This document shows, in pieces, positions 19,566-61,425 of a stretch of 64,000 bases of DNA. The notes under the pieces are model-generated. The model was not told the DNA's origin, did no database searches, and saw only the letters and a program-made list of their open reading frames with translations. The position numbers and the translations under genes are program-made. Origin of the DNA: Geodermatophilus tzadiensis (GTDB taxonomy: Bacteria > Actinomycetota > Actinomycetes > Mycobacteriales > Geodermatophilaceae). Positions within the stretch are counted from its first letter, which is position 1, and each line of letters begins with the position of its first letter. The stretch spans positions 1 through 64,000 of the forward strand of contig NZ_PVTG01000010.1 of NCBI RefSeq assembly GCF_003002915.1, in the 5' to 3' direction.

Positions 19566-19566
19566 C

Positions 19567-38097: not shown

Positions 38098-39585
38098 GTG
38101 GCCGACAGCAACGGGGGCAGCGCCACGTCGAGGACGACCGTACGGGGGCTCAGAGGCGTCCGCGTGCAGTTGACCGAGACTGGTGGCGCCGTGCGCCCTG
38201 ATCACCTCAAGCCTGCGGAGCGGGCGGTTCGGGAACGTCTGCGACCCTTGTGGCTCCGTCGTGGTGTGGGGCCCTACCTGGTCCTCGGTGACGTCACGGC
38301 CTTCGCCATCGCGACGGCGATCACGCTGCCGGGCTCGGCGCTGGTACACGGGCTTGCCCTGGCGTTCCTCCTGCTGGTGTTCTGGCGCGCCGGGCTCTAC
38401 CGGTCGCGGCTGACCCTCTCCCTGCTGGATGACCTGCCCTACGTTCTCGCAGCAGTGATCGTGGCCTGGTTCTTCAAGGTGGCGCTCTTCTCCGTGCTGC
38501 CGGGTGTGGACGCCCCGGCCCGCCAGGTCGTCCACACCGTCGTGCTGCTTGTGGCCGTCCTGCTGCTCCGCCTGGTGGCCTACCGCATCGTGCACACCGC
38601 GCGGTGCCGCGGCCTGGTCCGCCACCGAACCCTGATCGTGGGCGCCGGCCCGGTGGGCGTGCGCGTCGCCGCCACCCTGCTCGAACGCCACGACTACGGA
38701 CTCGACCCAATCGGCTTCCTCGACACCGAGTGGCCTGGCGGGTCGGGCCCTCTGCTCCCTATCCCGCTGCTGGGCCGCTACCACCGGCTCGGGCAGGCGA
38801 TCCAGGAACTCGGGGTGCGCGACGTCGTCGTCGCCTACGGCGGGGTCGACGACGACGAGCTCGTCGACATCCTGCGCACCTGTGACCGGCTCGACGTCGA
38901 CGTCTTTGTCGTGCCGCGTCTGTTCGAGCTGCACGACGCCAACCGCTACACCGACGAGATCTGGGGGATCCCGCTCGTCCGCCGTCGCCGCTCGGTCTAC
39001 CGCAGCCCCTGGTGGCGGGTGAAGCGGTTGGTCGACGTCATGGTGTCCGCGCTCGCGCTCCTGCTGCTTACGCCGGTGCTGGCCGTCTGCGCGCTCGCCG
39101 TCCGGCTCGAGGGTGGGCCCGGGATCATTTTCCGGCAGGAACGGGTCGGGCTGGACGGACGGCCGTTCCAGGTCCTCAAGTTCCGCTCGCTCAAGCCGGT
39201 GGACGACACGGAGTCCCAGACGAACTGGAACATCAAGCACGACGACCGCCTCGGGCCGGTGGGCCGGTTCCTCAGGGCCACCTCGCTCGACGAGCTGCCG
39301 CAGCTGTGGAACATCGTGCGCGGCGACATGAGTCTCGTGGGACCGCGCCCCGAGCGACCGCACTTCGTCGACCAGTTCTCCGCGCACATCCCCCGCTACA
39401 CCGCCCGCCACCGGGTGCCCGCGGGGCTCACCGGCTGGGCGCAGGCCCACGGGCTGCGCGGCGACACCTCGATCGAGGACCGCGCGCGCTTCGACAACTA
39501 CTACATCGAGAACTGGTCGCCGTGGCTCGACGTCAAGATCGTCCTCAAGACGGTCGGTCAGGTGGTCCGGCGCCAGGGTGGCTGA
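38098..39585 (+). CDS. Polyprenyl-phosphate sugar-1-phosphate transferase (priming glycosyltransferase), copy 2
   Basis: A 495-residue WbaP/WcaJ-type transferase. About four N-terminal membrane helices (from PYLVLGDVTAFAIATAI) are followed by a nucleotide-binding domain, TLIVGAGPVGVRVAATLLE, a re-entrant helix (LVDVMVSALALLLLTPVLAV) and the catalytic domain with VLKFRSLKP, DELPQLWNIVRGDMSLVGPR and GLTGWAQAHGLRG. Start GTG at 38098 has GGAGG at 7-nt spacing. Unlike copy 1 it keeps an intact GAGPVG dinucleotide-binding loop. An operator-like dyad precedes it. Having two distinct priming enzymes suggests two glycans or two starter sugars. Confidence 0.9.
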   Translation: MADSNGGSATSRTTVRGLRGVRVQLTETGGAVRPDHLKPAERAVRERLRPLWLRRGVGPYLVLGDVTAFAIATAITLPGSALVHGLALAFLLLVFWRAGLYRSRLTLSLLDDLPYVLAAVIVAWFFKVALFSVLPGVDAPARQVVHTVVLLVAVLLLRLVAYRIVHTARCRGLVRHRTLIVGAGPVGVRVAATLLERHDYGLDPIGFLDTEWPGGSGPLLPIPLLGRYHRLGQAIQELGVRDVVVAYGGVDDDELVDILRTCDRLDVDVFVVPRLFELHDANRYTDEIWGIPLVRRRRSVYRSPWWRVKRLVDVMVSALALLLLTPVLAVCALAVRLEGGPGIIFRQERVGLDGRPFQVLKFRSLKPVDDTESQTNWNIKHDDRLGPVGRFLRATSLDELPQLWNIVRGDMSLVGPRPERPHFVDQFSAHIPRYTARHRVPAGLTGWAQAHGLRGDTSIEDRARFDNYYIENWSPWLDVKIVLKTVGQVVRRQGG

Positions 39586-41203: not shown

Positions 41204-41305
41204 CCGACGCCCCCCGCCGTCCCCCTGATCGGGTCCTCCCCAGGCGAGACACCGCCACCCGTGGTGCACTTCGGAGTCGAAGTGTCCGGACGGAGGGAGA
41301 CGGCG

Positions 41306-45902: not shown

Positions 45903-46772
45903 ATGACCCAGACCCAGAGCCACCCGGACGTCCGCATCCCGACGCAGGCCCGCATCCACCACGTCCCCGTCCGCACCGCCGCGCCGCGGGTGAGCGTCGT
46001 CATCCCGACCTACAACGAGGCGCGGAACCTGCCGCACGTCTTCTCCCGCCTCCCCGAGGGCCTACACGAGGTGATCGTCGTCGACGGGCACAGCATCGAC
46101 GACACCATCGAGGTCGCCCGGGCACTCCGGCCCGACGTCCGGATCGTCCGGCAGACCCGCCGCGGCAAGGGCAACGCGATGGCCTGCGGCTTCGCGGCCG
46201 TCACCGGCGACGTCGTCGTCATGCTCGACGCCGACGGCTCGGCCGACGGGCAGGAGATCGAGCGCTTCGTCGCCGCGCTCACCGCCGGCGCGGACTTCGC
46301 CAAGGGCACGCGCTTCGCCAGCGACGGCGGGAGCTCGGACATCACCCGGACGCGGGCGTGGGGCAACCGGTGGCTGAACCGGATCGCCAACCTCCTGTTC
46401 GGCACCCGCTACACCGACCTCTGCTACGGCTACAACGCGTTCTGGACGCACTGCCTGTCGTCCCTCGACCTCGACCCGGGCACGGAGCGGGGCGACGTCA
46501 AGCTGTGGGGCGACGGCTTCGAGATCGAGACGATCATCAACACCCGCATGGCCAAGGCGGGGATGCAGATCACCGAGGTGCCCAGCTACGAGCACCCGCG
46601 GCTGCACGGGACCAGCAACCTCAACACCTGGCGGGACGGGTTCCGGGTGCTCGGTGCGCTGGCCGTCGAGCGGTGCAACCGCAAGGGCCGCCGGGTGGCG
46701 GTGGCGCCCATCGCCCTGCCGGCGCCGCACGTGCGCGACACGGCGCCGCGCGGAGCCGAGAAGACGGCGTGA
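45903..46772 (+). CDS. Family 2 glycosyltransferase (dolichol-phosphate-mannose synthase-like)
   Basis: A 289-residue GT-A glycosyltransferase. VSVVIPTYNEARNLPHVF, VIVVDGHSIDDT, the basic QTRRGKGNAM segment and VMLDADGSAD (the DxD site) match polyprenyl-phosphate sugar transferases. It has no C-terminal membrane helices. WGDGFEIETIINTRMAKAG and a C-terminal TSNLNTWRDGFRVL follow the pattern of cytoplasmic processive or single-transfer enzymes. Start ATG at 45903. It is followed by a strong hairpin at 46828-46865, so it probably ends a transcript. Confidence 0.85.
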   Translation: MTQTQSHPDVRIPTQARIHHVPVRTAAPRVSVVIPTYNEARNLPHVFSRLPEGLHEVIVVDGHSIDDTIEVARALRPDVRIVRQTRRGKGNAMACGFAAVTGDVVVMLDADGSADGQEIERFVAALTAGADFAKGTRFASDGGSSDITRTRAWGNRWLNRIANLLFGTRYTDLCYGYNAFWTHCLSSLDLDPGTERGDVKLWGDGFEIETIINTRMAKAGMQITEVPSYEHPRLHGTSNLNTWRDGFRVLGALAVERCNRKGRRVAVAPIALPAPHVRDTAPRGAEKTA

Positions 46773-47305: not shown

Positions 47306-50272
47306 TCAGCGCGTCGATGCCCTCAGCGCGGCGTCCATGCGCGCCGCCAGCTCGGGGGTGTGCTCCCCGCTGAGCAGGACGTGGTGGGAGCCGGGGATCG
47401 AGACGACCCGGAGGTCCGGCGCGACCCGGCGCCACACGTAGAGCAGGTTGGCGATCACCGGCACCCGGAACCGGGCGCGGAAGTAGGTGACCGGCCCGGC
47501 GTGGGGCCGCAGCCGGTAGGCGTTGAACACCCGGTAGGCGGCCGTGAAGGTCTGCCGCTCCTCGTCCACCGGCGTCACGGCGCGGCCGAAGCGCCGGCGC
47601 AGGACCGCGAGCACCGAGTCCTCGACCATGCCGGGCACCAGGAGCGCGATCCACCACGCCACGGTCCGCAGCGCGCGGGAGACCCGGGACAGGTGGTCGA
47701 AGGGCGGCTCGGTGTCGAGCAGGCCGAGGAAGGTGACCGTCCGGCCGGCCGCGGTGAGCTGCCGGGCCATCTCGTAGGCGACCAGGCCCCCGAAGGAGTA
47801 CCCCGCCAGCCGGACGTCCCCCTCGGGGAGCGTCTCCTGCACGCCGGCCACCAGCGGGGTGGCGATGTCCTCGATGGTGATGCCCTCGGTCGCGGCGATC
47901 CGGGGGTCGGACGTCAGGCCGTAGACCGGTGCCGAGGTCTCCAGCGCGTCCACCAGGGTGCGGTAGATGTCGACGTCCCCGAGGTAGCCGTGCACCAGGA
48001 ACAGCGGGGTCTCGGCCGGGTCCCCGCGGCGCAGCACCTCGCACGGGGTGTCGGCCGTGGCCCCGGTGGTGACGGCCCGGGTCACCCCGCGCACGGACGG
48101 GTCGGCCAGGAAGTCCTCCAGCAGCAGCGGGCGGTCCAGCTCCAGCCGCAGTCGCCGCATCAGCGTCATCGCCTGGCGCGAGGTGCCGCCGGCGTCGGTG
48201 AAGTGGGCGTCGTCGGCCACCGGCCCGCCGAGCACCTCGGCGAAGACCCGCGCCACCGCGGCGTGGGTGTCGCCGTCCTCGGCCGGCACGGTCGCGGTCG
48301 CCGCGGCCTCCTGCGCACGCCGGGCCGCCGCGCCGATCGACTCCAGCGACCCGGGGTTCTTCAGCGCCGACAGGTTGCGGACCGGCTGGCCCGAGAGCAC
48401 GGCCCGCGCCGCGCTCTCGGAGCGCTTGCCGTTGTGGGTCAGCGGGATCTCGTCGACCGCCAGGACCACCGACGGCACGTGCGCGGGTGACCCCTCCCGG
48501 CGCAGCCTGGCCCGGATCTCCCGGCTCAGCTCGTCGTCGAGCTCCGTGCCGCGCTGCAGCACGACCAGCAGCACCATGCGGCTGCTCCCCGGGGCGGCCG
48601 GGTCCTCGGTCTCGACGGCGACGGCGTCGGCGACGCCGGGCACCGCGCGGACGATCCGGTAGACCTCCGAGGGGCCGATGCGGATCCCGTTGACGTTGAG
48701 GACGCCGTCGGACCGACCGTGCAGCCGCGAGGAGCCGTCGGCGGCGATCTCGATGCGGTCGCCGTGGGTCCACGTGCCGGGGTGCTGCGTGAAGTAGGCG
48801 GCCCGGAAGCGCTCCCCGTCGGGGTCCCGCAGGAAGCGGACCGGCCGCGACGGGAAGGGGTTGCGGCAGACCAGCTCGCCGACCTCGTCGAGGACCGGTC
48901 GCTCGTCGTCGTCCAGCGCGGCCACGTCCAGCCCCAGGCTGAGCGACTGGCAGCGGCCCGGGCGCACCGGGACCTCGGGGTGGCCGAGCACGAAGCAGCC
49001 GACGATGTCCGTGCCGCCCGAGATGGACTGCAGCGGCACCGGGCCCACGTGCTCGGCGAGCCAGGCGAACTGCCAGTCGTGCAGGACGGCGCCGGTGGAC
49101 AGCACCGCACGGATGGCGCTGACGTCGACGTCGGCCCGCGGGACGTAGCCCTCGTCCTGGCACAGCTGCAGGTAGGCGGGGCTGGTGCCCAACACGGTCA
49201 CCCCGTGCCGCGCCGCCAGGCGCCAGAGCGTCTCCGGACCGGTGACCGGGCCGTCGTAGAGGACGACGTGCGCGCCGACGGACAGGGCCGACAGCTGCCA
49301 GTTCCACATCATCCACGCGGTGGTGGTGTGGAAGTACAGGACGTCGGTCGGCCGGAGGTCGACGTGGAGCCGGTGCTCCTTGACGTGCTCGAGGAGCGAG
49401 CCCCCGATCCCGTGCACCATCGCCTTCGGCGGTCCGGTGGTCCCGGAGGAGAAGAGGACCCAGAGCGGGTCGTCGAAGGCCACGCGCGGCCAGTCCGGCC
49501 CGGGGTCGTCGGCCGGCACCGCCGCCACCAGGTCGGCCAGGCGGGTGACGGGCAGCCCGGTGAGCTCGGGCAGCGGCCCGTCGTCGAGCAGGACCACCCG
49601 GCGGGTCGCCGGCAGCCCCGACACGACCTCCCGCAGCACCTCGTCGGCGGGCCGGTCCCCGCCGCCGAGACCCGAGCGGTCGACCAGCACGGTGGTGGCG
49701 TCGACCTGGCCGAACCGCCCGAGCAGGCTGCTGACCCCCATGTCGGGCGTGGCGGTCGACAGCGCCGCCCCGAGACCGGCAACGGCGAGTCCGGCGACGA
49801 CGACCCGGGCGTTGTTGGCGGAGATCGCGACCACCGTGTCCCCGGCGCTCACGCCGGCGTCGGCCAGGGCACGCGAGGTCCGGCGGGCCGCCGTCCGCAG
49901 CTCCGACCGCGAGAACCGCTCGACCGAGCCGTCCCCGTGCACGGAGGTGAGCGCCGGCGACGCGTCGTCGACGCCGGGCAGCGGGCGCAGGAGGTTCTCG
50001 GCGTAGTTGAGCCGCACGTCCGGGAAGAAGCGGGCGGTCCACACGTCGTCCGACGTGCTCACCGTGTCCGCGGACCCCTCCCACGCCAGGTCCGCCCAGT
50101 CGAGGAAGGTGCGCCAGAAGTCCCGGTAGGAGTCCACCGACCACGCGTGCAGCGCCGTGGCGGTGGGGAGCGGGCGGCCGGCGACGGACTCGCAGCGCAG
50201 CCTGAGGTCCGCGACCTGGTGCACCCGCGCCGGCGCGCGCACCTCGTCCGGTGCGGTGCCGAGCTCCGTCAT
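47306..50272 (-). CDS. Tridomain adenylation-carrier-thioesterase (A-T-TE) protein, acetoacetyl-CoA synthetase-like
   Basis: A 988-residue single-module synthetase. Residues 1-620 form an ANL-superfamily adenylating domain of the acetoacetyl-CoA synthetase subgroup (FPDVRLNYAENLL at 83-95), with SSGTTGPPKAMVHG at 275-288, SISGGTDIVGCF at 416-427, THGDRIE at 502-508, GRSDGVLNVNGIRIGPSE at 519-536 and Lys616 in HNGKR. A carrier domain follows with GGTS and pantetheine Ser698. A thioesterase ends the chain: GYSFGG (Ser826), Asp853, His963 or 964. The start ATG at 50272 has AGGAGG six bases upstream. It is divergent from a second A-T-TE gene. It would activate a carboxylic acid such as a beta-keto or short acyl acid, hold it on the carrier and release it; product unknown. 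Confidence 0.85.
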   Translation of the reverse strand: MTELGTAPDEVRAPARVHQVADLRLRCESVAGRPLPTATALHAWSVDSYRDFWRTFLDWADLAWEGSADTVSTSDDVWTARFFPDVRLNYAENLLRPLPGVDDASPALTSVHGDGSVERFSRSELRTAARRTSRALADAGVSAGDTVVAISANNARVVVAGLAVAGLGAALSTATPDMGVSSLLGRFGQVDATTVLVDRSGLGGGDRPADEVLREVVSGLPATRRVVLLDDGPLPELTGLPVTRLADLVAAVPADDPGPDWPRVAFDDPLWVLFSSGTTGPPKAMVHGIGGSLLEHVKEHRLHVDLRPTDVLYFHTTTAWMMWNWQLSALSVGAHVVLYDGPVTGPETLWRLAARHGVTVLGTSPAYLQLCQDEGYVPRADVDVSAIRAVLSTGAVLHDWQFAWLAEHVGPVPLQSISGGTDIVGCFVLGHPEVPVRPGRCQSLSLGLDVAALDDDERPVLDEVGELVCRNPFPSRPVRFLRDPDGERFRAAYFTQHPGTWTHGDRIEIAADGSSRLHGRSDGVLNVNGIRIGPSEVYRIVRAVPGVADAVAVETEDPAAPGSSRMVLLVVLQRGTELDDELSREIRARLRREGSPAHVPSVVLAVDEIPLTHNGKRSESAARAVLSGQPVRNLSALKNPGSLESIGAAARRAQEAAATATVPAEDGDTHAAVARVFAEVLGGPVADDAHFTDAGGTSRQAMTLMRRLRLELDRPLLLEDFLADPSVRGVTRAVTTGATADTPCEVLRRGDPAETPLFLVHGYLGDVDIYRTLVDALETSAPVYGLTSDPRIAATEGITIEDIATPLVAGVQETLPEGDVRLAGYSFGGLVAYEMARQLTAAGRTVTFLGLLDTEPPFDHLSRVSRALRTVAWWIALLVPGMVEDSVLAVLRRRFGRAVTPVDEERQTFTAAYRVFNAYRLRPHAGPVTYFRARFRVPVIANLLYVWRRVAPDLRVVSIPGSHHVLLSGEHTPELAARMDAALRASTR

Positions 50273-50757
50273 CTCCTACCTCCTGGCATCAGGGCCACCG
50301 GGCCGAGCGCGTCCCGGTCCGGCGGGAGGTCAACGGGCAGCCGGCGGATCCCGGTTCCCCAGGTACCCGACACGGCCTCCGCCGCGACGTCCCACCGGGG
50401 GGCGGCGAGGTCGACTCCGCGCACGGCGACGGGCGCGGCTCCGGAGGCGACGTCAGGGCGGGCGGTTCTCCCGCGGACCATCCGAATGACCATCACGCTC
50501 CGTGTGCGGGTTCGTCGACCCAGCGTAGTGGACGTCAAGCTAGTCGCTGGTCCGACCACTGCCAAGGCCGCTCTGAGCCGAGCATGGGCGCTCGACGGGC
50601 CCGGGTGCCCGTGCGCGGTCGTGCACTCACCCCGACGGATGACCCGCCGCTGCCGGGCCGGGTGGGGACGGCGACCACGATCGGAGGACCGAGGTGGGTC
50701 CCGCCGGTACCGGGCCGTTACCGTCGTCGGGTCCAGCCCGCAGGAGGAACGGTGTCC
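50273..50757. promoter_or_regulatory. Divergent control region between two A-T-TE genes
   Basis: This 485-bp region lies between head-to-head synthetase genes and contains no gene I can support; open frames in it are low-complexity Arg/Pro/Ala. It should carry both promoters. A TTGACG-like hexamer is present on the minus strand at 50533-50538 without a convincing -10 partner. Confidence 0.4.
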
Positions 50758-53376
50758 ATGTCTGCCCCCGCGTCCGGTCCACCCGTCGCCGGCCCCGCCC
50801 GCCGCGCGGGTGCCGTCGCGTCCGTCTTCGAGGCCGTGGTGGCCCAGCGGGGCGGTGCGACCGCGGTGAGCGGACCGGACTCGTGCCTGAGCTTCGAGGA
50901 GCTCGGCGCGCGGGCACGGGCAGCCGCCGGCCGGATCGCCGCCCTCGTGCCGCCGGAGGCCGCACCCGGTGCGCCGGTGGCCGTCCTGGCGACCCCCGCC
51001 CCGGAGCTGGTCGTCGCCGTCTTCGGCGTGGTGCTCACCGGCCGGCCGCTGGTCGTCCTCGACCCGCAGCTGCCGACCGGGCGCCTCCAGCAGATCCAGG
51101 AGATGGCCGGAGCCGCGATCGCCGTGGTCGAGGGCCGGCTCGCGGCGCGCGCCGAGGAGGTCGGGACCTTCCCGGTCGTGACCGACCTCGACGCCCTCGT
51201 CGCCCCGCCGGGCCCGGAGGACGTCGCCCCGGCCGACGGGTCCGGGGAGCCCCCGGCGGCGCCCGGGCCGGACAGCCCGGCGACCATCGTCTTCACCTCC
51301 GGGTCCACCGGCCGGCCGAAGGGGGTCGTCCACGGCCAGGCGTTCGTCGTGGCGGAGGCCGCCATCACCGCCCGGTACATGGACCTGACGGCGGAGGACC
51401 GGGTCGGCCTCGTCCTGCCGCCGTCCTTCGCCCTCGGGGAGCACGCCCTCTTCGGCGCCCTCCTGAACGGGGTGGGCCTGCACGTCTACGACCCCCGGGA
51501 CCGTGGCATGCGGGGCCTGCCCGCCTTCCTGCGGGAGCAGGGGGTGACGGTCCTGACGATGACCCCGTCGCTGCTGCGCGCCCTGACCGGTGTGCTGTCG
51601 CCGGGTCAGCGGCTGGACGACCTGCGGCTGGTGGCCACCGCCGGCGAGGCGCTGCAGGGACGTGACGTGCGGGCGGCCCGGGACCGCCTCGGGGAGGTCA
51701 CGATCATGAACCACCTGGGCTCCTCCGAGACCGGGCAGCTGTCGTTCGCGCCCCTCCTGCCCGCCGACCCGGTGGGCGACGGCCCGGTCCCCGCCGGGTA
51801 CGTGGCGGAGGAGAAGGAGATCCAGGTCCTCGGGGAGGACGGTCGCGCGGTCCCGCCCGGCGAGGTCGGCACGCTGCACGTCCTGGGCACCCACCTGGCG
51901 AGCTACCTGACCGGGAGCGCGGACGGCCCGTTCGGTCGCGCGGAGGACGGCCGGGCGACCTTCCGCACGGGTGACCGGGGCCGCTACGACGAGCACGGTG
52001 TGCTGCACCAGCTGGGCCGCACCGACGACGCGGTGAAGGTCAACGGCTACCTCGTCGAGCCCTCCGAGGTCGAGACGGCCCTGCGCGGCCTGACCGGCGT
52101 CGCGGACGCGGCCGTCGTCGCGGTGCGGCACGACACCGGCACCGGCCTCGTCGGCTACGTCGCACCGAGCAGCGACCAGCGCACCCCCTCGCCAGCGCAG
52201 TTGCGCCGCGAGCTGGTCGCGCTGCTGCCGAGCTGGATGGTCCCCGCCGAGCTGGTGCTGCTCGACGAGCTGCCGCGCAACGAGCGGGGCAAGGTCGACC
52301 GCGGGGCGCTGCCCCCGCCCGTCCGGCCCGAGCCCGAGCCGCCCCAGGGGCACTGGGAGCAGGTCGTGGCCGGGCTGTTCGAGTCCGTCCTGCACCGCTC
52401 CGGTGTCGGCCGGGACGAGACCTTCACCTCCCTGGGCGGGGACTCCCTCAGCGTCGAGGAGATGCTCACCCGTCTCGGGGAGGAGCACGGTGTCGTGCTG
52501 ACCTCCGGGGACGTGGCGGAGAACGCGACGGTGCGCCAGCTCGCCGCGGTCGTGGCGCGGTCCCGGGCGGGCGACGCCGGCGGCGCGCGGGTCCGGTCCG
52601 GGCGCCGGCGCGCCAGCGTGGTCGCCCTGCGGCAGTCCGGGTCCCGCCTCCCCGTGCTGTGCTTCGCCGGGGCCGGGGCCGGGGGCCAGGCGTTCCTCCC
52701 CCTGGCCGAGGTGCTGGGTGACGACCAGCCCGTGTACGCCTTCCAGCCGCACGGGTTCGAGGAGTGGGGCCTGCCGGACTACTCCATCGGCATGGCGGCG
52801 CGCCGGCACCTGCGCCGGTTGCGGGCGATCCAGCCGCACGGGCCGTACCGGCTGGTGGGCCACTCCATGGGCGGGCTCGTCGCCCTGCAGGTCGCCCGGC
52901 GCCTGGCCGCCGCCGGCGAGCGGGTGGACTCGGTGACGCTCGTCGACACCGTCCTGCCCCAGCGGCTGGTCGAGCGGGCCTGGCCCGCCGAGGCGACCGC
53001 GGCCGGGGAGCGCCCGACCGTGGCCCCCCTGCCCGGCGACGACAAGTACGGTCCGCCGACGACGAGGCGCGAGCTGTGGCGGCGGCGGGTCCTGGCGCTC
53101 GCGACCGCGGTGCTGCCCCCGGGCGGGGCGCGCATGGAGGGCATGCTCGAGCTCGGGGTGCGGGTGTCGCTCCTGCACCACCCGCAGCCGTGGGACGGCC
53201 GCGTGGACGTCTACGTCAGCCACCTCAACGAGGCCAGCCTCGTCGTGTGGGAGCAGCTGCTGGTCGGGGACGTCCGGATGACCACCCTGCCCGGTGAGCA
53301 CAACTCCCTGCTGCGGACGCCGTACGTGGAGCAGATCGCGCGCGGCCTCGCCACCGACGGCGACACGGCTCCCTGA
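50758..53376 (+). CDS. Tridomain adenylation-carrier-thioesterase (A-T-TE) NRPS-like protein
   Basis: An 872-residue NRPS-like enzyme without a condensation domain. The adenylation domain shows TIVFTSGSTGRPKG (176-189), NHLGSSETG (318-326), RTGDRGR (403-409) and Lys512 in NERGKVD. The usual FD.S position reads FALG (224-227), so the Asp that binds an alpha-amino group is absent and an amino acid is unlikely as substrate. A carrier domain has LGGDSL with Ser563. A thioesterase has GHSMGG (Ser703), Asp730 and a GEH His near 846. Start ATG at 50758; AGGAGG lies ten bases upstream and a GTG at 50752 is an alternative. Fungal atromentin-type and bacterial RalA-type synthetases have this same three-domain layout. 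Confidence 0.87.
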   Translation: MSAPASGPPVAGPARRAGAVASVFEAVVAQRGGATAVSGPDSCLSFEELGARARAAAGRIAALVPPEAAPGAPVAVLATPAPELVVAVFGVVLTGRPLVVLDPQLPTGRLQQIQEMAGAAIAVVEGRLAARAEEVGTFPVVTDLDALVAPPGPEDVAPADGSGEPPAAPGPDSPATIVFTSGSTGRPKGVVHGQAFVVAEAAITARYMDLTAEDRVGLVLPPSFALGEHALFGALLNGVGLHVYDPRDRGMRGLPAFLREQGVTVLTMTPSLLRALTGVLSPGQRLDDLRLVATAGEALQGRDVRAARDRLGEVTIMNHLGSSETGQLSFAPLLPADPVGDGPVPAGYVAEEKEIQVLGEDGRAVPPGEVGTLHVLGTHLASYLTGSADGPFGRAEDGRATFRTGDRGRYDEHGVLHQLGRTDDAVKVNGYLVEPSEVETALRGLTGVADAAVVAVRHDTGTGLVGYVAPSSDQRTPSPAQLRRELVALLPSWMVPAELVLLDELPRNERGKVDRGALPPPVRPEPEPPQGHWEQVVAGLFESVLHRSGVGRDETFTSLGGDSLSVEEMLTRLGEEHGVVLTSGDVAENATVRQLAAVVARSRAGDAGGARVRSGRRRASVVALRQSGSRLPVLCFAGAGAGGQAFLPLAEVLGDDQPVYAFQPHGFEEWGLPDYSIGMAARRHLRRLRAIQPHGPYRLVGHSMGGLVALQVARRLAAAGERVDSVTLVDTVLPQRLVERAWPAEATAAGERPTVAPLPGDDKYGPPTTRRELWRRRVLALATAVLPPGGARMEGMLELGVRVSLLHHPQPWDGRVDVYVSHLNEASLVVWEQLLVGDVRMTTLPGEHNSLLRTPYVEQIARGLATDGDTAP

Positions 53377-53616: not shown

Positions 53617-54618
53617 GTGCTGAACCTGTCATCCAGCCCCGCCGGGAACGCGGTGGTCGCCGTGGCGCACCCGGCGCCGCACCGCCCCGCGGAACCGACG
53701 GTCTCGGTGGTCATCGCCTGCTACACCGAGGCGCGGTGGGCGGGGATCACCGCCGCCGTCCGGTCGGCGCTCGACCAGGACCGGCCACCGCTCGAGGTCG
53801 TCGTCGCCGTCGACCACGCCCCCGCGCTGCTGGACCGGGTCGAGCGGGCGTTCCCCGAGGTCCGCGTCGTCCCCAACACCACCGCACGCGGTGCCTCCGG
53901 CACCCGGAACGCCGGGGCGCGGGCCGCGCGGGGCGACGTCGTCGCCTTCCTGGACGACGACACCCGGGCGGCACGCACCTGGCTGCGCACCCTCGTCCGC
54001 GGCCTGCAGGAGACCCCCGGGGCCGTCGGCGTCGGGGGACGGGTCGAGGCGGACTGGCCCCGCGGTGTCGTGCCCCGCTGGTTCCCCCCGGAGTTCCTCT
54101 GGGTGGTCGGCGCGTCCTACGAGGGGATGCCGACCCGGCGCAGCGAGGTGCGCAACGTGTGGAGCGAGAGCATGGCCGTCTGGCGCGAGGACTTCGCCCG
54201 GGTCGGCGGCTTCCGCGACGGCTTCGGGAAGCTGGGGGCCGCGTCCAGCCCGGAGGACACGGAGTTCTGCATCCGCGCGGCCGCCGTGACCGGGCGGACC
54301 TGGCTCTACGTCCCGGAGGCCCAGATCGTCCACGACGTCCCCGCCGCCCGGGCCGGCTGGAGCTACTTCGTCCGCCGCTGCTACGAGGAGGGTCGGGGCA
54401 AGGCCGCGATGGCCGCCCTGGACCAGGGGAGTGCGCTCGGCGAGGAGCGCGGCCACGTGCTGGGGGCCATCCCGCGCGGGGTGTGGCGCGACCTGCGCCG
54501 TGTCCTCCGCGGGGACGGGTGGGGCCTGGCCCGCGTGGCCACCACCGGGGTGGGCCTGCTGGCCGCCGCCTGGGGGTACGCCGCCGGCCGGACCACCGCG
54601 GCCCGGGCCGGCGCCTGA
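53617..54618 (+). CDS. Family 2 glycosyltransferase
   Basis: A 333-residue GT-A glycosyltransferase with VSVVIACYTEARW, the conserved GASGTRNAGARAA loop, VVAFLDDDTRA (DDD metal site), and VWSESMAVWREDFARVGGFR leading to ASSPEDTEFCIRAA. A C-terminal hydrophobic segment (VATTGVGLLAAAWGYAAG) may anchor it in the membrane. Start GTG at 53617 has GGAGG at six bases. It follows the second A-T-TE gene after 240 bp and ends just before a strong hairpin shared with the convergent GH16 gene. It is similar in layout to the partial GT2 at the right edge. Confidence 0.87.
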   Translation: MLNLSSSPAGNAVVAVAHPAPHRPAEPTVSVVIACYTEARWAGITAAVRSALDQDRPPLEVVVAVDHAPALLDRVERAFPEVRVVPNTTARGASGTRNAGARAARGDVVAFLDDDTRAARTWLRTLVRGLQETPGAVGVGGRVEADWPRGVVPRWFPPEFLWVVGASYEGMPTRRSEVRNVWSESMAVWREDFARVGGFRDGFGKLGAASSPEDTEFCIRAAAVTGRTWLYVPEAQIVHDVPAARAGWSYFVRRCYEEGRGKAAMAALDQGSALGEERGHVLGAIPRGVWRDLRRVLRGDGWGLARVATTGVGLLAAAWGYAAGRTTAARAGA

Positions 54619-54673: not shown

Positions 54674-55813
54674 TCAGGCCGGTGCGTAGATGGTGACCCA
54701 GTCGACCTGCATGGTCGTCGTCCGCGGGTTGCCCACGCCGCAGCCGAAGGCGCCACCGCCGCCCTGGCAGCCGCCGGGCTGGGTCTGGATCGCCAGGTGC
54801 ATCGCCTCGCTCGGCACGCCCTGGTGCACCGTCGTCGCCCACGGCCGGCCGTCGAGGGTGTAGACGAGGCGGCCGGGGGACCACTCGACGCCCATGGTGT
54901 GCCACTGCGTCAGGTCGACGGCGACCCGCTCGCCGACCATCGCGTTGTTCCCGCCGTAGTGCAGCGTGGCCGTCGTGCCGCTGCGGTTGCCGCCGGCGTC
55001 CTCGGCGAAGTCGATCTCCGGCGGCCAGCTCGGGCCGTCCGGCCAGAGCAGTGCGGCGTACTTGATCTCATCGCCCGCGTCGACGCGGAACCGCATCTCC
55101 CACTTGCCGTAGGTCTGGCCGATCCGGCTGGCCAGCCCGCCGCTGACCCACTGGCCGTTCAGCAGCTCGTTGCGCAGCTGCAGGAACCCGCCGCTCACCG
55201 AGACCTGGGAGGGCGACCAGGTGCCGTACGGGGAGCCGCCGGGCTGGCCGGAGTAGGTGCGCCACTGGGAGCCCAGCGTCGAGCCGTCGAACCCGTCGGT
55301 GAAGACCTGCCGCCACCCGGTGACGTCGCCCGTGGGCGCCGGGACGCCCGCCCCGCCGGTCGTCGTCGCGGACGGCGCCGGTGCCGCCGCCTGCGGGGCC
55401 GGGGTGGGCGACGGGGTCGTGGCCTGCGGCGCGGGGGCGGCGGGCGGCGTGGACGCGGGAACCGGCGGGGGTGCGGGAGCCGGCGTGGTCGGCGGCGGAG
55501 CGGGCTGCGTGGTGGGCGGCGTGGCCGGCGGCGGAACGGCCTGCGGAGCCGTCGCTGCCGGCGGTCCGGACCGCCGCGTCGAGGCGGGGGACTCGTTGCG
55601 CGGCCGGCGCTGCGAGGTCTCGTCGTTCCCCCAGACGCGCCACCACGAGGCGGCCTCGACCACGGAGTCGGTCGCCGTGGCGTCCTCCGGTGCGTCCAGC
55701 GACAGGGCCACGAGGCTGCTGGCGGCCGTGCAGGCGGCCGTCAGGGCGATGAGGCGGATGGCGAGGCGCTTCCTCACGTCTCGGGGTCGGCCGGATGCAC
55801 GGTGTGACGACAT
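54674..55813 (-). CDS. Secreted GH16 beta-glucanase-like protein with Pro-rich linker
   Basis: A 379-residue exported glycoside hydrolase. An N-terminal signal or anchor (AIRLIALTAACTAASSLVAL) is followed by about 110 residues rich in Pro, Thr and Ala (PPPTTPAPAPPPVP), a likely wall-spanning linker. From residue about 160 it forms a GH16 beta-jelly-roll: WRQVFTDGFDGSTLGSQWRT, GKWEMRFRVDAG, then the catalytic E-x-D-x-x-E in PPEIDFAED, and HTMGVEWSPGRLVYTLDG. Such enzymes cleave beta-1,3/1,4-glucans or related glycans, and in EPS loci trim the product. Start ATG at 55813; a GTG at 55777 is possible. It is divergent from a second GH16 gene. Confidence 0.87.
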   Translation of the reverse strand: MSSHRASGRPRDVRKRLAIRLIALTAACTAASSLVALSLDAPEDATATDSVVEAASWWRVWGNDETSQRRPRNESPASTRRSGPPAATAPQAVPPPATPPTTQPAPPPTTPAPAPPPVPASTPPAAPAPQATTPSPTPAPQAAAPAPSATTTGGAGVPAPTGDVTGWRQVFTDGFDGSTLGSQWRTYSGQPGGSPYGTWSPSQVSVSGGFLQLRNELLNGQWVSGGLASRIGQTYGKWEMRFRVDAGDEIKYAALLWPDGPSWPPEIDFAEDAGGNRSGTTATLHYGGNNAMVGERVAVDLTQWHTMGVEWSPGRLVYTLDGRPWATTVHQGVPSEAMHLAIQTQPGGCQGGGGAFGCGVGNPRTTTMQVDWVTIYAPA

Positions 55814-56044
55814 AGCTGGGAGTAAACATGTCGACACGGTGAGCTGTGAAGAGTGGACAGGGTGGTACGGACCACTTCGTCTCTCCCGGGCACCGCGCGC
55901 ACCAGTGGTCACACGCGTCCCTCGGCCGGGCCGGGGAGCACGGGCCGGCCGGGTCGCCCGTCCGGGGGCCGGGTGTCGTCCGATCCTGTCGTGTGCCCCA
56001 CACCACCTGATCCCGCCGGTCCGGCCCCGTATCCTGGGATGATC

Positions 56045-56902
56045 ATGTCGTCGCACGTTCGAGCCGCCGGGTCGCACGCCGAGGTCGGCCCGCCCCGCCG
56101 CGCCCCCCGCCGCCGGGTGGGTGGCTGGCTCGCCGCCACCACCGTGCTGGGCCTCCTCGCGTCCTGCACCACGGGCGGCTCGGAGCCCCCGTCGGCCGGT
56201 TCGGAGGCCCCGCCGACCGGCCTGGACGACGGTGAGCCCCTCCCCTCGACCGCAGCCGAACGCCTCGGCTGGCGGCAGTTCGACGGCGACGAGTTCGACG
56301 ACGGGCAGCTCGACCCCGCCGACTGGCGGCTCTACGGGGGCGCGGGCGCCAACAACATCGGGGTCCGCAGCCCGGACGCGGTCTCGCTGCGGCAGGGCCA
56401 GCTGGTGATCACCGCCTGGCAGCAGTTCTCCGGTGGGCTCGCGTGGCACGGCGAGCCGGCCACCACGTACGGCAGGTGGGAGTTCCGGGCCAGGGTCGAG
56501 GAGGGCACGGGGTACGCGCCGGCCATCCTCCTGTGGCCGGACTCGGACAACTGGCCGATCGACGGCGAGATCGACGTGATGGAGATCGTCGCCGGCGACC
56601 GGGGGATCAACCACACGACCGTCCACTACGGCGCGAACGACATGCGGATCGACAGCACGGTGGACGGCGACTTCACCCAGTGGCACAACTACGCCGTCGA
56701 CTGGCAGCCGGACAGCATCACCGTCTACCTCGACGGTGAGGAGGTCTTCCAGACCACCGAGCCGGCGGCCATCCCGCACGGCCCGATGCACCTGGCCATC
56801 CAGCTCGACGTGGGACCGCAGGGCACGTGGATCCCCGCTCCGGACGAGACCACCCCGGAGACGGTGAGCCTCTACGTGGACTGGGTCCGGATGTACCGCT
56901 GA
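56045..56902 (+). CDS. GH16 glycoside hydrolase, predicted lipoprotein
   Basis: A 285-residue GH16 protein. A lipobox, LLASC, near residues 38-42 predicts lipidation at Cys and attachment to the outer face of the membrane. The catalytic domain follows directly: WRQFDGDEFDDGQLDPADWR, YGRWEFRARVEEG, ILLWPDSDNWPIDGEID and catalytic EIDVMEIV, then WHNYAVDWQPDSITVYLDG. It lacks the Pro-rich linker of its divergent neighbour. TATCCT (56030-56035) lies so close to ATG codons at 56039 and 56045 that the transcript may be nearly leaderless. Its stop is 14 bp before the phosphatase-family gene. Confidence 0.87.
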   Translation: MSSHVRAAGSHAEVGPPRRAPRRRVGGWLAATTVLGLLASCTTGGSEPPSAGSEAPPTGLDDGEPLPSTAAERLGWRQFDGDEFDDGQLDPADWRLYGGAGANNIGVRSPDAVSLRQGQLVITAWQQFSGGLAWHGEPATTYGRWEFRARVEEGTGYAPAILLWPDSDNWPIDGEIDVMEIVAGDRGINHTTVHYGANDMRIDSTVDGDFTQWHNYAVDWQPDSITVYLDGEEVFQTTEPAAIPHGPMHLAIQLDVGPQGTWIPAPDETTPETVSLYVDWVRMYR

Positions 56903-57974: not shown

Positions 57975-58040
57975 GGACCTCCGACGGCCCTCGGACCTCC
58001 GACGGCCCTCGGACCTCCGACGCTCCTCAGACCTCCGACG
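57975..58040. repeat. 18-bp tandem repeats at the end of the acyltransferase gene
   Basis: The unit GGACCTCCGACGGCCCTC occurs twice exactly (57975-57992, 57993-58010), then once with changes (58011-58028), then partially to 58040. The last copies lie within the terminal codons of the minus-strand acyltransferase and around its stop (58027-58029). Slippage here could alter its C-terminus. Confidence 0.8.
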
Positions 58041-58584
58041 CGATGGCGGCCCGCCGGTGGCCCGGGTCGTCCACGCGCACCAGCTCCGCGGGGACACCGA
58101 GGACGACGCCCCACTCGGGCACGTCCCGCAGCACCAGCGACAGCGCGCCGACGCGGGCGTGCGAGCCCACGTGCACGGCGCCGACGACGACGCACCCGGC
58201 CCCGAACTCGACGTCGTCCCCGGCGCTGGCGACGCCCTTCTCCGAGCCGTCCCGCCGGACCACGTTGCCGATCGTGACGTGCTGCCGGAGCACGCAGTCG
58301 GCCCCCAGGCGCACACGGGGGTTGAGCACGATGCCGTGCGGGTGGAAGACGCGCAGCCGAGGTCCCACCTCGAGCTCGGGCGGGAGCTCGACGCCCACGA
58401 ACAGCGAGGTGAACAGCGAGTAGCCGAAGGCCAGGGCCCGGCCGGGCAGACCCCAGTGGCGCACCGCCCACTGGGCGGTGCGGAACGCCAGGAGCAGCAG
58501 GCGGGAGTCCGGGTACCCGGCGTTGACCGCCCAGTCCTGGGTCGCCCAGCGGCGGAACCCCGGGCCGGGGACGGCGTCGCTCAC
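58027..58584 (-). CDS. Left-handed beta-helix acyltransferase (serine acetyltransferase-like)
   Basis: A 185-residue hexapeptide-repeat transferase. FHPHGIVLNPRVRLGADCVL and RQHVTIGNV, followed by VEFGAGCVVVGAVHVG, give the repeating [LIV]-G-x4 turns of the beta-helix; an N-terminal helical domain precedes them as in CysE-like O-acetyltransferases of polysaccharide loci. It probably acetylates a sugar hydroxyl using acetyl-CoA. The GTG start at 58584 overlaps the preceding stop by 4 nt (GTGA). It is the last gene of the six-gene operon. Confidence 0.85.
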   Translation of the reverse strand: MSDAVPGPGFRRWATQDWAVNAGYPDSRLLLLAFRTAQWAVRHWGLPGRALAFGYSLFTSLFVGVELPPELEVGPRLRVFHPHGIVLNPRVRLGADCVLRQHVTIGNVVRRDGSEKGVASAGDDVEFGAGCVVVGAVHVGSHARVGALSLVLRDVPEWGVVLGVPAELVRVDDPGHRRAAIASEV

Positions 58585-60422
58585 GGCGCGCCGCCCTCGA
58601 AGCGGACGATCAGCGCGTCGTCGTTCTCGTACTCGGTGGTCCACCCCGGCGCGCCCGCGACGGCCTCCTCGAGCCGCTGGAGGGACCCGTCGGCCACCAG
58701 GCCGTAGTACTCGGAGTACTCGACCATGCTGCGGGTGATGACCAGGTACGGCCGCTCACCCTGGGTCGCCATGAACTCCTCGACCGCGGGCAGCCCGCCC
58801 TCGTCGAGCAGCTCCCCGCCCAGGCCGGCGAACGTGATGAGATCCGGGTCGCCGCCGGAGGACGGCACCCCGAAGGCGTTGTAGTCGGCCGTGAGGCGCC
58901 CGGGCGCGTTCTGGGCCCCGATCACGAGCGTGCTGCGCTGCTCCCCGTTCTCGTAGAGCCACCGCATGGCCGCCACCTCGTCCTCCGAGAAGGTCGACCA
59001 GGCCAGGGTGCCGTGCAGCCCCTGGATGCTGGCGAGCGAGACGGCGACCAGGACCACGGCCAGCGCCGGGGCGAGGACGCGCGCCCACCGGATGCGCAGC
59101 ACCGCCTGGGCGATCAGGAAGGCGGTGAAGGGCAGGGAGAACAGGTAGACGCGGTAGATGGCCTCGCCGCCGTAGCTCTGCCCGAGCAGGATGAGGAAGG
59201 GTGCGAACGCCAGGGCGGCCGGCACCAGCACCCGGCCGGGCGTGCGCCAGGACACCAGCACCGCGAGGGCGCCGGCCAGCCAGATGCCCAGCGCGAGCGC
59301 GGAGGCGACCGTGCTGGTGAACACCTGGCCCGCGGTGCCGGTCGTCGTCGAGACGACGCCGCCGGCGTTCTCCCAGAACCGCAGGCTGTCGAGCAGGCCG
59401 TAGGCGCTGTTGATGAACTCGAAGCGCGGGAGCAGGTAGGCCACGGCGATGACGAGGCAGCCGAGGACCGTCCACCGGGGCCGGACCGTCCCCAGCGCCG
59501 TGAGCAGCACGAAGGCCGCGACGAGCATGTACGGCGACAGCTGGTGGGCGATGGTGACGGTGGCGAAGAGCACGTACAGCAGGGCCAGCGCGGCCCAGCG
59601 GCTCCGCTGCGCCACCGGGGTCACCGGCTCGGCCCCCCGCGCCGTCCACGCCTTGAGCCGCCGCAGCCACGACGGCCCGCGGCGCCACTCCGTCGGGGTC
59701 CGGCGCAGCCAGGCGAGCACGACGAGCACGCAGCCCAGGCTCAGGTGGAAGGCGTACGCCTGCGGCGACAGGTAGGCGGTGCCCACCCACAGCCCCGCGT
59801 GGAAGAGGAAGACCGTCAGGAACGCCACCCGGCGGTCCTCGGACAGGGTCCGGGCGATGGCGAAGACGGGCAGGCAGACCAGCAGGCTGGAGGCGAACGG
59901 GGCCCAGGCCGCCAGCGTCAGCGTGCTCACGCCGGTGAGGTCGCCGAGGGCGGCCACCGCCGTGAACAGGGCCGGCCACTGCTGGTAGATGTCGCGGGGG
60001 TCGGTGACGCCGTTGCCCTCGCGGAACCACTCGACGACGCCGAGGTGCTTGTAGGTCCAGGCGTACTCGGGGTTGGTGTAGAGGATCGGCACGGTCGCGT
60101 CGATGACCGCCACGAGGCCGACCACCCCGGCCACCAGCACCCAGGTGCGCCGCTGGTCGAACAGCTCCAGGACGAACCCGGCGCACAGCAGCGCCAGGCC
60201 GGCGTAGAACAGCGGGCCGACGAGGGCCAGCAGGCCGTAGTCCGACCGCGTCGCGGTGTCGACCTGCGTGAGGCTCCCCGCCCACGAGGCCAGGCCGGCG
60301 AGGACGACGAGGGGCGCCAGTGCCCGGCGGACCAGCGACGCCCGCTCCCGGCGCGGGGTGCCGCCGCTGGCGGAGGCGGGGAGGGCGTCGGGGGTGCCGG
60401 CGTCGGCGAAGGCGCGGGTCAT
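58581..60422 (-). CDS. Large polytopic membrane protein, glycosyltransferase-39/polymerase-like
   Basis: A 613-residue protein with about 12-13 transmembrane helices and a C-terminal extracytoplasmic domain of about 130 residues (from WLYENGEQRSTLVIG to the end). The first loops have TVPILYTNPEYAWTYKHLG and YQQWPALFTAVAALG. The topology suits polyprenyl-phosphate-dependent glycosyltransferases (GT-C fold) or polymerases, but I recognise no diagnostic motif. The ATG at 60422 overlaps the upstream stop by 4 nt (ATGA), and its own stop overlaps the acyltransferase start. Could act as the polymerase of the glycan carried by the third flippase. Confidence 0.7.
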   Translation of the reverse strand: MTRAFADAGTPDALPASASGGTPRRERASLVRRALAPLVVLAGLASWAGSLTQVDTATRSDYGLLALVGPLFYAGLALLCAGFVLELFDQRRTWVLVAGVVGLVAVIDATVPILYTNPEYAWTYKHLGVVEWFREGNGVTDPRDIYQQWPALFTAVAALGDLTGVSTLTLAAWAPFASSLLVCLPVFAIARTLSEDRRVAFLTVFLFHAGLWVGTAYLSPQAYAFHLSLGCVLVVLAWLRRTPTEWRRGPSWLRRLKAWTARGAEPVTPVAQRSRWAALALLYVLFATVTIAHQLSPYMLVAAFVLLTALGTVRPRWTVLGCLVIAVAYLLPRFEFINSAYGLLDSLRFWENAGGVVSTTTGTAGQVFTSTVASALALGIWLAGALAVLVSWRTPGRVLVPAALAFAPFLILLGQSYGGEAIYRVYLFSLPFTAFLIAQAVLRIRWARVLAPALAVVLVAVSLASIQGLHGTLAWSTFSEDEVAAMRWLYENGEQRSTLVIGAQNAPGRLTADYNAFGVPSSGGDPDLITFAGLGGELLDEGGLPAVEEFMATQGERPYLVITRSMVEYSEYYGLVADGSLQRLEEAVAGAPGWTTEYENDDALIVRFEGGAP

Positions 60423-60826
60423 CGGCCGGTCCTCCGCGTCCGCAGGAGCGCGACCGCGCAGGACGCGACGGTGCCGGCCGCGAGGACCAGCAGGAGGGTG
60501 GTCGGTGACCACGCGTTGAGCCACGCCATGACGGCGGAGCCGATGCCCCAGACCGCCAGCGACAGCACGTTGGTCAGCGCCCACGCCGTCGACTGCCGCG
60601 AGGTCGCCACGTGGGCCAGGACGGCCGCTCCCGGACCCGCGCAGACGAAGGCGAGCACCGTCACGAGGCGCACCACCTGCGGGGCGTCGACGGCGACCGC
60701 CAGGGCCGCGGCCACGGCCGTGGCGATGCCGGCCCAGGCGACGAGCGTCCGGGTGAAGGGGCCGGTGCGGTCCCGGATGCGGAGGGACACGTCCGGCGCT
60801 CCGGTGGGTGCACTGGTGGAGCTCAT
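60419..60826 (-). CDS. Small four-helix membrane protein
   Basis: A 135-residue protein with four predicted membrane helices (LVAWAGIATAVAAALAVAV, LVTVLAFVCAGPGAAVLAHV, ALTNVLSLAVWGIGSAVMAW and LLLVLAAGTVASCAVALL). Its ATG at 60826 overlaps the acyltransferase stop, and its TGA overlaps the start of the large membrane protein. No family is recognised; its conserved position suggests a partner of one of the membrane proteins. Confidence 0.7.
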   Translation of the reverse strand: MSSTSAPTGAPDVSLRIRDRTGPFTRTLVAWAGIATAVAAALAVAVDAPQVVRLVTVLAFVCAGPGAAVLAHVATSRQSTAWALTNVLSLAVWGIGSAVMAWLNAWSPTTLLLVLAAGTVASCAVALLRTRRTGR

Positions 60827-61425
60827 GCGGTGACCTCTCTCGCGCGGGTCCTGCTGGGGTCGACCTCGCGGACACGCCGGGCGGGGACGCCGGCGTAGAC
60901 GCCGTGGGGCAGGCAGTCGGCCGCCACGACGGCTCCCGCCGCCACGACCACGTCGTCCCCGATCGTCACACCGGGCAGGACGGTGACCCGGGCCCCGAGC
61001 CACACCCGGTCCCCGATCACCACGGGCAGGCCCCGGGCCTGCGACCGCCACGTCCCGCCCGGACCGCGGTGGTCCGAGGTGATGATCATCGTCTGCATGC
61101 CGACGGCGCAGTCGACGCCGATCTCGACCGGGGCGACGGCCTCGACGAAGCACTGCAGGTTCAGGTAGCTGCGCGCCCCGATCCGGACGTTGCGCGGATC
61201 GCCCTCGAAGCGGCAGGCGGGGCTGACCACGAAGGAGTCGACCGCCATCCCGCCGAGCCGGTAGAGCGTGCGGCGCAGGGCCTTGGGGACGGCGAAGGAG
61301 GCCGCCACCCGGTTGAACCAGAGGTTGCGCCGGAAGACGCGCGCGTCCAGGCGCAGTTCCGCCACCAGCAGCCGGAGGTCGGACCCGCGCAGCAGGCTCC
61401 GGCGGGCGGGGGCCGACGTGGTCAC
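60823..61425 (-). CDS. WcaF/LbH-type acetyltransferase
   Basis: A 200-residue hexapeptide acyltransferase of the galactoside/maltose acetyltransferase type. SYLNLQCFVEAVAPVEIGVD and CAVGMQTMIITSDH, with its catalytic His, lead to VIGDRVWLGARVTVLPGVTI and DDVVVAAGAVVAADCLPHGV, the regular beta-helix and terminal loop. Substrate is likely a sugar in the repeat unit. Start GTG at 61425 overlaps the flippase stop by 4 nt. It is the second O-acyltransferase in the operon, so the polymer may be acetylated at two positions. Confidence 0.87.
   Translation of the reverse strand: MTTSAPARRSLLRGSDLRLLVAELRLDARVFRRNLWFNRVAASFAVPKALRRTLYRLGGMAVDSFVVSPACRFEGDPRNVRIGARSYLNLQCFVEAVAPVEIGVDCAVGMQTMIITSDHRGPGGTWRSQARGLPVVIGDRVWLGARVTVLPGVTIGDDVVVAAGAVVAADCLPHGVYAGVPARRVREVDPSRTRAREVTA

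Follow-up and report, generated by a model that had tools for sequence, protein, structure and literature searches.

Within the 64,000-nucleotide stretch of Geodermatophilus tzadiensis considered here (positions 1 to 64,000 of contig NZ_PVTG01000010.1, assembly GCF_003002915.1, forward strand; hereafter the window), two divergent genes inside a polysaccharide region encode unlike single-module synthetases of the adenylation–carrier–thioesterase (A-T-TE) type, here called P1 and P2. P1 represents an acetoacetate-type A-T-TE family that is frequently accompanied by a phosphopantetheinyl transferase (PPTase) gene, while relatives of P2 recur in polysaccharide loci and in one case form a single protein with a flippase, and the two proteins co-occur across genomes of the Geodermatophilaceae. 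It is tentatively suggested that both one-module enzymes, though different in kind, contribute to a single acyl decoration of the cell envelope or of an exopolysaccharide, a reading to which we give somewhat less than an even chance.

Architecture and families of P1 and P2

The two genes lie head to head, with a gap of 485 bp when ATG 50758 is taken as the start of P2 (the initial annotation of this DNA had used a longer open reading frame (ORF) with its start at 50251):

47306..50272, minus strand: P1, an A-T-TE synthetase of 988 amino acids (Pfam, NCBIfam, fold match and tree clade); adenylation domain at residues 110-472, its C-terminal part at 540-616, carrier at 672-733 and thioesterase at 756-981 (Pfam)
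50758..53376, plus strand: P2, an A-T-TE synthetase of 872 amino acids with an adenylation domain like that of nonribosomal peptide synthetases (NRPS) (Pfam and residues); carrier at residues 536-598 and thioesterase from residue 632 (Pfam)

In both proteins AMP-binding, AMP-binding_C, PP-binding and Thioesterase domains score above the curated Pfam cut-offs (an ACAS_N match in P1 stays under its cut-off), and the Pfam scan found no condensation domain in either, so that neither has the make-up of an NRPS termination module. The catalytic residues are intact, namely Lys616, carrier Ser698 and thioesterase Ser826/Asp853/His963 in P1, and Lys512, carrier Ser563 and thioesterase Ser703/Asp730/His848 in P2; the carrier serines, the possible lack of which had been raised beforehand, are thus present in both. 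P2 carries the stretch F224-A225-L226-G227, with Ala225 at the position of the alpha-amino-binding Asp of amino-acid adenylation domains. Pfam domains, coordinates, residue reading and neighbouring glycan genes therefore bear out the initial annotation, which had described a head-to-head tridomain pair in a polysaccharide locus, with complete catalytic residues and without condensation domains, one member of which (FALG at 224-227) lacks the Asp that binds amino acids.

The other member had been called acetoacetyl-coenzyme A (CoA) synthetase-like, and this holds for P1. Its adenylation domain exceeds the cut-offs of two acetoacetate--CoA ligase models (NF002937, 647.7 bits against 639; TIGR01217, 582.3 bits against 520.9), and the acetoacetyl-CoA synthetase 4WD1 is the nearest solved structure in both sequence and fold (the structure model of P1 has a mean predicted local distance difference test score (pLDDT) of 83.1, and the fold match alone was read from it). 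The pocket signatures WMMWN and SGGTD are identical to those of 4WD1 and STG stands in place of TTG, the other acetoacetate ligases compared having slightly different signatures (WIMWN, TGGTD). Throughout the aligned P1 relatives and acetoacetate ligases, GGTD takes the place of the Trp-bearing stretch of acetyl-CoA synthetase, in which that Trp narrows the acyl pocket. In a tree of 57 adenylation-domain rows, for which the program issued a warning about the length of the outgroup branch and which leaves three further ligase rows aside, 49 A-T-TE rows group in a single clade (100/99) that excludes seven bona fide acetoacetyl-CoA synthetases and acetyl-CoA synthetase; 116 alignment columns are conserved alike in the 49 rows and the seven ligases, and 13 are conserved differently. 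The clade includes Geodermatophilaceae, an Amnibacterium metagenome-assembled genome (MAG), Mangrovihabitans, Pseudonocardia, Cupriavidus, Paraburkholderia, Caballeronia, a deltaproteobacterial MAG and a gammaproteobacterial MAG. Judged from this tree, the P1 family is cross-phylum (Actinomycetota and proteobacteria) and distinct from ordinary acetoacetyl-CoA synthetases.

A search of 112 Geodermatophilaceae genomes gave 42 P1 matches in 35 genomes at 1,151 bits or more, the next among the matches listed reaching at most 595 bits, and 39 of the 42 extend into the thioesterase end (those of G489, G036 and G511 do not, in that match). In G511 the P1 relative is split into two ORFs of 738 and 304 amino acids, with the PPTase gene still adjoining (L275). 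The genome of the window itself has a paralogue, P1', which is 58% identical to P1 and lies on another contig (C6). Wider relatives were taken from the best 80 of 151 loci, 40 of which were checked: 23 are P1-type, one (L168) is just a truncated terminus, and the remaining 16, from Saprospiraceae, Nostoc, Pedobacter and other taxa, were dropped as other NRPS proteins. Among seven full-length relatives on plasmids, two are annotated as acetoacetate--CoA ligase and five bear no gene name in the table; on plasmids of Cupriavidus necator (L182:11953-15042) and Caballeronia (L183:11884-14952), this label hides the carrier and thioesterase of full-length A-T-TE proteins. In the P1 family, which spans at least two phyla, proteins passing as acetoacetate-CoA ligases are synthetases that bear a carrier and often have a PPTase of their own.

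The adenylation domain of P2 stays under the cut-off of TIGR01733. Its relatives stand among glycan genes in L069, L070, L077, L084, L104/L254 and L252, settings that were read at selected loci and not counted across all P2 loci. In the last of these, from genome G519, P2 is present twice, together with two GH16 genes, a number of glycosyltransferases and a relative of the 613-amino-acid protein of the window. A ligase together with a carrier in a glycan locus, as in carrier-based glycan acylation, is therefore found for P2 in the window, L069, L070, L077, L084, L104 and L252. In G382, a genome of the same order, a single open frame of 1,293 amino acids (L247:8858-12736) joins an N-terminal Wzx-type flippase part, 32% identical to the flippase of the window (E 1.7e-36), to a P2-type A-T-TE part, 38% identical to P2 (E 5e-129). 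As far as the gene content of these loci can tell, P2 is tied to polysaccharide genes more closely than P1.

Next to the fusion gene lie genes for 3-dehydroquinate synthase II, a DeoC/LacD aldolase and a FAD (flavin adenine dinucleotide) oxidoreductase. The first two make 3-amino-4-hydroxybenzoate as a pair, and these neighbours may represent an aminohydroxybenzoate route. As the supply of the acid for P2 in the window this route was ruled out, since PF01959 is absent from the genome; it is found in none of 26 Geodermatophilus genomes and in three of the 61 genomes searched, all outside the family. Three further P2 relatives (L259_10, L260_10 and L261_8) are of 630-647 amino acids, L259_10 having no thioesterase match and L261_8 stopping soon after the carrier. 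Comparison by eye of the P2 substrate code with that of GrsA allowed no substrate to be named and was not used, and a P2 structure model built from four sequences was discarded (mean pLDDT 40.5).

Each enzyme might instead be a self-sufficient condenser like RalA, EchA and the fungal quinone and furanone synthetases, the thioesterase joining two loaded acids in a Claisen or Dieckmann reaction. P1 supplied with acetoacetate, for which it has the type of pocket, could then yield a pyrone of the dehydroacetic-acid type, and the enzyme would make a pigment or signal instead of part of a glycan. Non-reducing A-T-TE enzymes, with which P1 and P2 share the domain layout and the preserved thioesterase triad, join two identical keto acids according to the available parts of two sources (PMC9047271, PMC10316625); the characterised members described there use aryl-alpha-keto acids, whereas the adenylation domain of P1 is of the acetoacetyl-CoA synthetase family. 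The two annotated Burkholderiales regions with P1 relatives list neither tailoring nor glycan genes, which fits condensation at least as well as glycan decoration, but the recurrence of P2 in glycan loci and the flippase fusion would be left unexplained. A pigment-like condensation product is a serious rival to the glycan reading, and we consider condensation by both enzymes rather unlikely.

PPTase genes and co-occurrence of the pair

A profile search placed a PPTase gene (PF01648, 46 bits) at most 2 kb from P1 in 40 of 57 loci, a count that includes six additional Burkholderiaceae loci. By group, the gene was found in 24 of 25 Geodermatophilaceae stretches, in six of seven Cupriavidus loci (downstream of P1), in none of nine Paraburkholderia/Caballeronia loci, where the zero may be a miss since the profile was built from Geodermatophilus sequences, in 10 of 15 other named loci, and not in the window. 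All 15 further Geodermatophilaceae P1 loci have it, as does L254. Some named loci are the same contigs as others (for example L102/L070, L104/L254 and L178/L274); with each locus counted once, PPTase adjoins P1 in 40 of 42 Geodermatophilaceae loci, the exceptions being the window and the second P1 of G014 (L071). Near ordinary acetoacetate-ligase loci it was found in none of 11, where the flanks covered reach at most about 1.5 kb.

In the window, no PPTase gene was detected beside P1 when all six frames were searched with the profile (E 1e-4). Upstream of P1, at the syntenic place, there is a short frame that tblastn aligns with the N terminus and the C terminus of the L069 and L070 PPTases:

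50275..50493, minus strand: probable remnant of an Sfp-type PPTase gene, 73 codons in frame, with the catalytic core missing (tblastn and synteny)

This place is the best window tile for both queries; against the best of 200 shuffles it reaches 34.3 versus 30.8 bits with one query and 30.8 versus 35.4 bits with the other. Its profile score of 10.8 bits ranks first of 2,001 including shuffles, and one other of the 1,763 window tiles scores equally. It is probably a PPTase gene with its core deleted, the position being telling and the scores speaking weakly for it. Just two ACPS-superfamily genes occur in the genome, and one adjoins P1'; as the PPTase of P1 itself appears lost, this copy on C6 is the likely source for both carriers.

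Presence of P2 was called at 770 bits or more and of P1 at 1,150 bits or more in the 112 Geodermatophilaceae genomes, thresholds that were chosen after the scores had been seen. P1 was present in 16 of 17 genomes with P2 and in 19 of 95 without it (Fisher one-sided 5.9e-9), and stratification by genus leaves the association in place (one-sided p = 3.5e-6, with no correction for shared ancestry inside genera), with 9/9 versus 7/17 in Geodermatophilus and 6/7 versus 2/16 in genus g6. Among the 96 genomes at least 90% complete the proportions are 16/17 and 17/79. When only P2 copies with a thioesterase are counted, P1 accompanies 13 of 14 (G024, G506 and G507 have just copies that end before this domain). 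The two genes lie within about 31 kb of each other in seven of the 16 genomes that bear both. Direct adjacency of the two genes was observed solely in the window, LHW52908 (L069), TF02-6 (L070) and Modestobacter altitudinis (L104/L254), whose P1 proteins form one clade (100/100). The pairing proposed at the outset is therefore restricted, as a head-to-head arrangement, to one P1 clade, but holds in a wider sense, since co-occurrence in genomes extends well beyond that clade.

Co-occurrence of this kind would also arise if P1 and P2 were functionally unrelated and P2 were confined to genomes owning the PPTase that accompanies P1. In G000, G002, G010 and G017, all of which bear P2, the PPTase beside a P1 is indeed one of only two ACPS-superfamily genes. 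However, seven of the ten Geodermatophilus genomes without P1 have at least two ACPS-superfamily genes, and in none of the ten did P2 reach the threshold. G519 combines P2 with a lone ACPS-superfamily gene and lacks P1, and a shared PPTase does not explain the proximity of P1 and P2 in seven genomes. Dependence on the PPTase as the whole of the tie is hence quite unlikely.

The polysaccharide region and the settings of P1

The region around P1 and P2 is a genuine polysaccharide region:

12606-13940: second sugar-phosphate transferase
18717-20766: ABC (ATP-binding cassette) transporter pair, Wzm/Wzt type
38266..39585, plus strand: sugar-phosphate transferase for chain initiation (PF02397, 221 bits)
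41261-42625: nucleotide-sugar dehydrogenase, by eye
44223-45710: ORF of 495 amino acids between glycan genes, containing an extended Thr/Gly repeat (TTTTG units) and unmatched in Pfam
45903..46772, plus strand: family-2 glycosyltransferase, AglJ-like (Pfam; NCBIfam match under cut-off)
53617..54618, plus strand: family-2 glycosyltransferase, AglG-like (Pfam; NCBIfam match under cut-off)
54674..55777, minus strand: GH16 family protein (PF00722)
56039..56902, plus strand: GH16 family protein (PF00722)
56917-57930: endonuclease/exonuclease/phosphatase-family protein, weakly VanJ-like (30 bits against a cut-off of 700)
58027..58584, minus strand: hexapeptide acyltransferase, serine-acetyltransferase-like (PF00132; NCBIfam under cut-offs)
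58581..60422, minus strand: protein of 613 amino acids conserved near P2 in several loci, with no Pfam or NCBIfam match
60823..61425, minus strand: second hexapeptide acyltransferase (PF00132/PF14602)
61422..62738, minus strand: flippase-like protein, Wzx-type (PF01943, 25.5 bits against a cut-off of 28.2)

A LytR-CpsA-Psr protein is also encoded within 38-64 kb, and more glycosyltransferases lie upstream, alongside the second sugar-phosphate transferase and the transporter pair; given two sugar-phosphate transferases, the window may hold two polysaccharide loci. The AglG-like glycosyltransferase gene adjoins P2 in L069, L070, L077 and L104 and is nearby in L252. The endonuclease/exonuclease/phosphatase-family gene adjoins a GH16 gene in the window, L069, L070 and L104, and at a place in L069 like that of the Thr/Gly-repeat ORF there is a Glu/Pro-rich ORF.

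Settings of P1 are more variable. P1' lies between mfd and genes for a SurA-like protein, mazG and enolase, and 19 of the 42 Geodermatophilaceae P1 loci adjoin mfd (14/26 in one set, 5/15 in another), whereas at least seven of the 42 (the window, L069, L070, L254, L086, L272 and L274) stand among several polysaccharide genes, the others being mixed or unassigned. Location alone is therefore insufficient to tie P1 to glycans, and the link to glycan genes envisaged in the initial annotation is retained for P2, through its relatives in glycan loci and the flippase fusion, and not, on grounds of location, for P1. The comparison of neighbourhoods proposed there gave PPTase, lost in the window, as the steady neighbour of P1 in Geodermatophilaceae, and recurrent glycan loci for P2.

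That P1 and P2 merely hold an acid on the carrier for modification by a partner enzyme until the thioesterase hydrolyses it off, a known tactic of A-T-TE proteins for modified building blocks such as beta-hydroxy-amino acids for antibiotics, is improbable, as no P450, halogenase or other tailoring enzyme was found among the window genes scanned at 38-64 kb (41261-42625 and 60419-60826 lying outside the scan) and no steady neighbour of P1 besides PPTase and mfd was seen in the neighbourhoods read.

Acyl decoration and comparison with known systems

In the proposed acyl-decoration task, P2 would adenylate a carboxylic acid other than an alpha-amino acid and load it on its own carrier, and its thioesterase would acylate a lipid-linked saccharide on a hydroxyl or amine; the flippase would then export the saccharide. 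P1 would adenylate a short beta-keto (or 3-hydroxy) acid through its acetoacetyl-CoA-synthetase-type pocket and load its own carrier, after which its thioesterase would release or transfer the acid as a second decoration or a precursor. Both carriers would need a PPTase, probably the one encoded beside P1'. The substrates, the acceptor and a thioesterase that transfers rather than hydrolyses or condenses are what we infer here. The more specific claim, that a single-module A-T-TE enzyme, fused to a flippase in one lineage, acylates a lipid-linked sugar at export and is joined by a cross-phylum acetoacetate-type A-T-TE family travelling with a PPTase, is unlikely as a whole.

Several observations weigh against acyl decoration. 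The Pfam layout shows no membrane part in P1 or P2, the many P1 copies beside mfd have housekeeping surroundings, and both annotated Burkholderiales P1 regions (for which the gene table is incomplete) look solitary, which suits a free small product. Genome G519 indicates that P2 need not depend on P1, and five genomes outside the family (G382, G345, G335, G197 and G431) have more distant P2 relatives but no P1-type protein. No recognised glycosyltransferase was found in the stretches read of L256, L257, L258 and L259, all with P2 relatives, and the relative in L259 ends after the carrier without a thioesterase. Shared ancestry within genera and the post-hoc thresholds may likewise lessen the weight of the co-occurrence.

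The A-T-TE layout itself is already known. In open-licence papers, covered by titles and the starts of abstracts, no account was found of an acetoacetate-type A-T-TE enzyme or family with a PPTase, nor of a product for it, nor of A-T-TE enzymes in glycan loci or tied to a flippase. If P2 indeed acylates a glycan, NRPS-like enzymes of one module, known chiefly for pigments and furanones, would be joined to the decoration of envelope polysaccharides, and the fusion in L247 is a single protein in which this idea becomes testable.

Among known systems, acetoacetyl-CoA synthetase (TIGR01217/NF002937; 4WD1) shares with P1 the adenylation-domain family and the acyl-pocket signatures, but is a stand-alone enzyme of about 650 amino acids acting on free CoA, whereas P1 has 988 amino acids with carrier and thioesterase, often a linked PPTase, and an adenylation domain in a separate clade. 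Pseudomonas NRPS 3 and 5 are single-module A-T-TE proteins of unknown role and resemble P1 and P2 by layout, the available part of that source stating no glycan or PPTase link (PMC8719888). The non-reducing quinone and furanone synthetases (AtrA, the polyporic acid synthetases, RalA and EchA), compared by layout and not by sequence, share with P1 and P2 the domain order, the absence of a condensation domain and substrates other than amino acids; P1 differs in its acetoacetyl-CoA-synthetase-type adenylation domain, and nothing points to aryl-pyruvate. The exosortase-A-associated, adenosine monophosphate-forming acyl ligases of TIGR03098 are also tied to exopolysaccharide loci, and the adenylation domain of P2 scores 183.5 bits with this model, far under the cut-off of 592. 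In the O-antigen of Vibrio cholerae O1, acyl activation is carried out by the ligase RfbL and the carrier RfbK, which are separate proteins with no thioesterase; the likeness to P1 and P2, drawn by description, is that of an acyl-activating ligase and a carrier in a polysaccharide locus.

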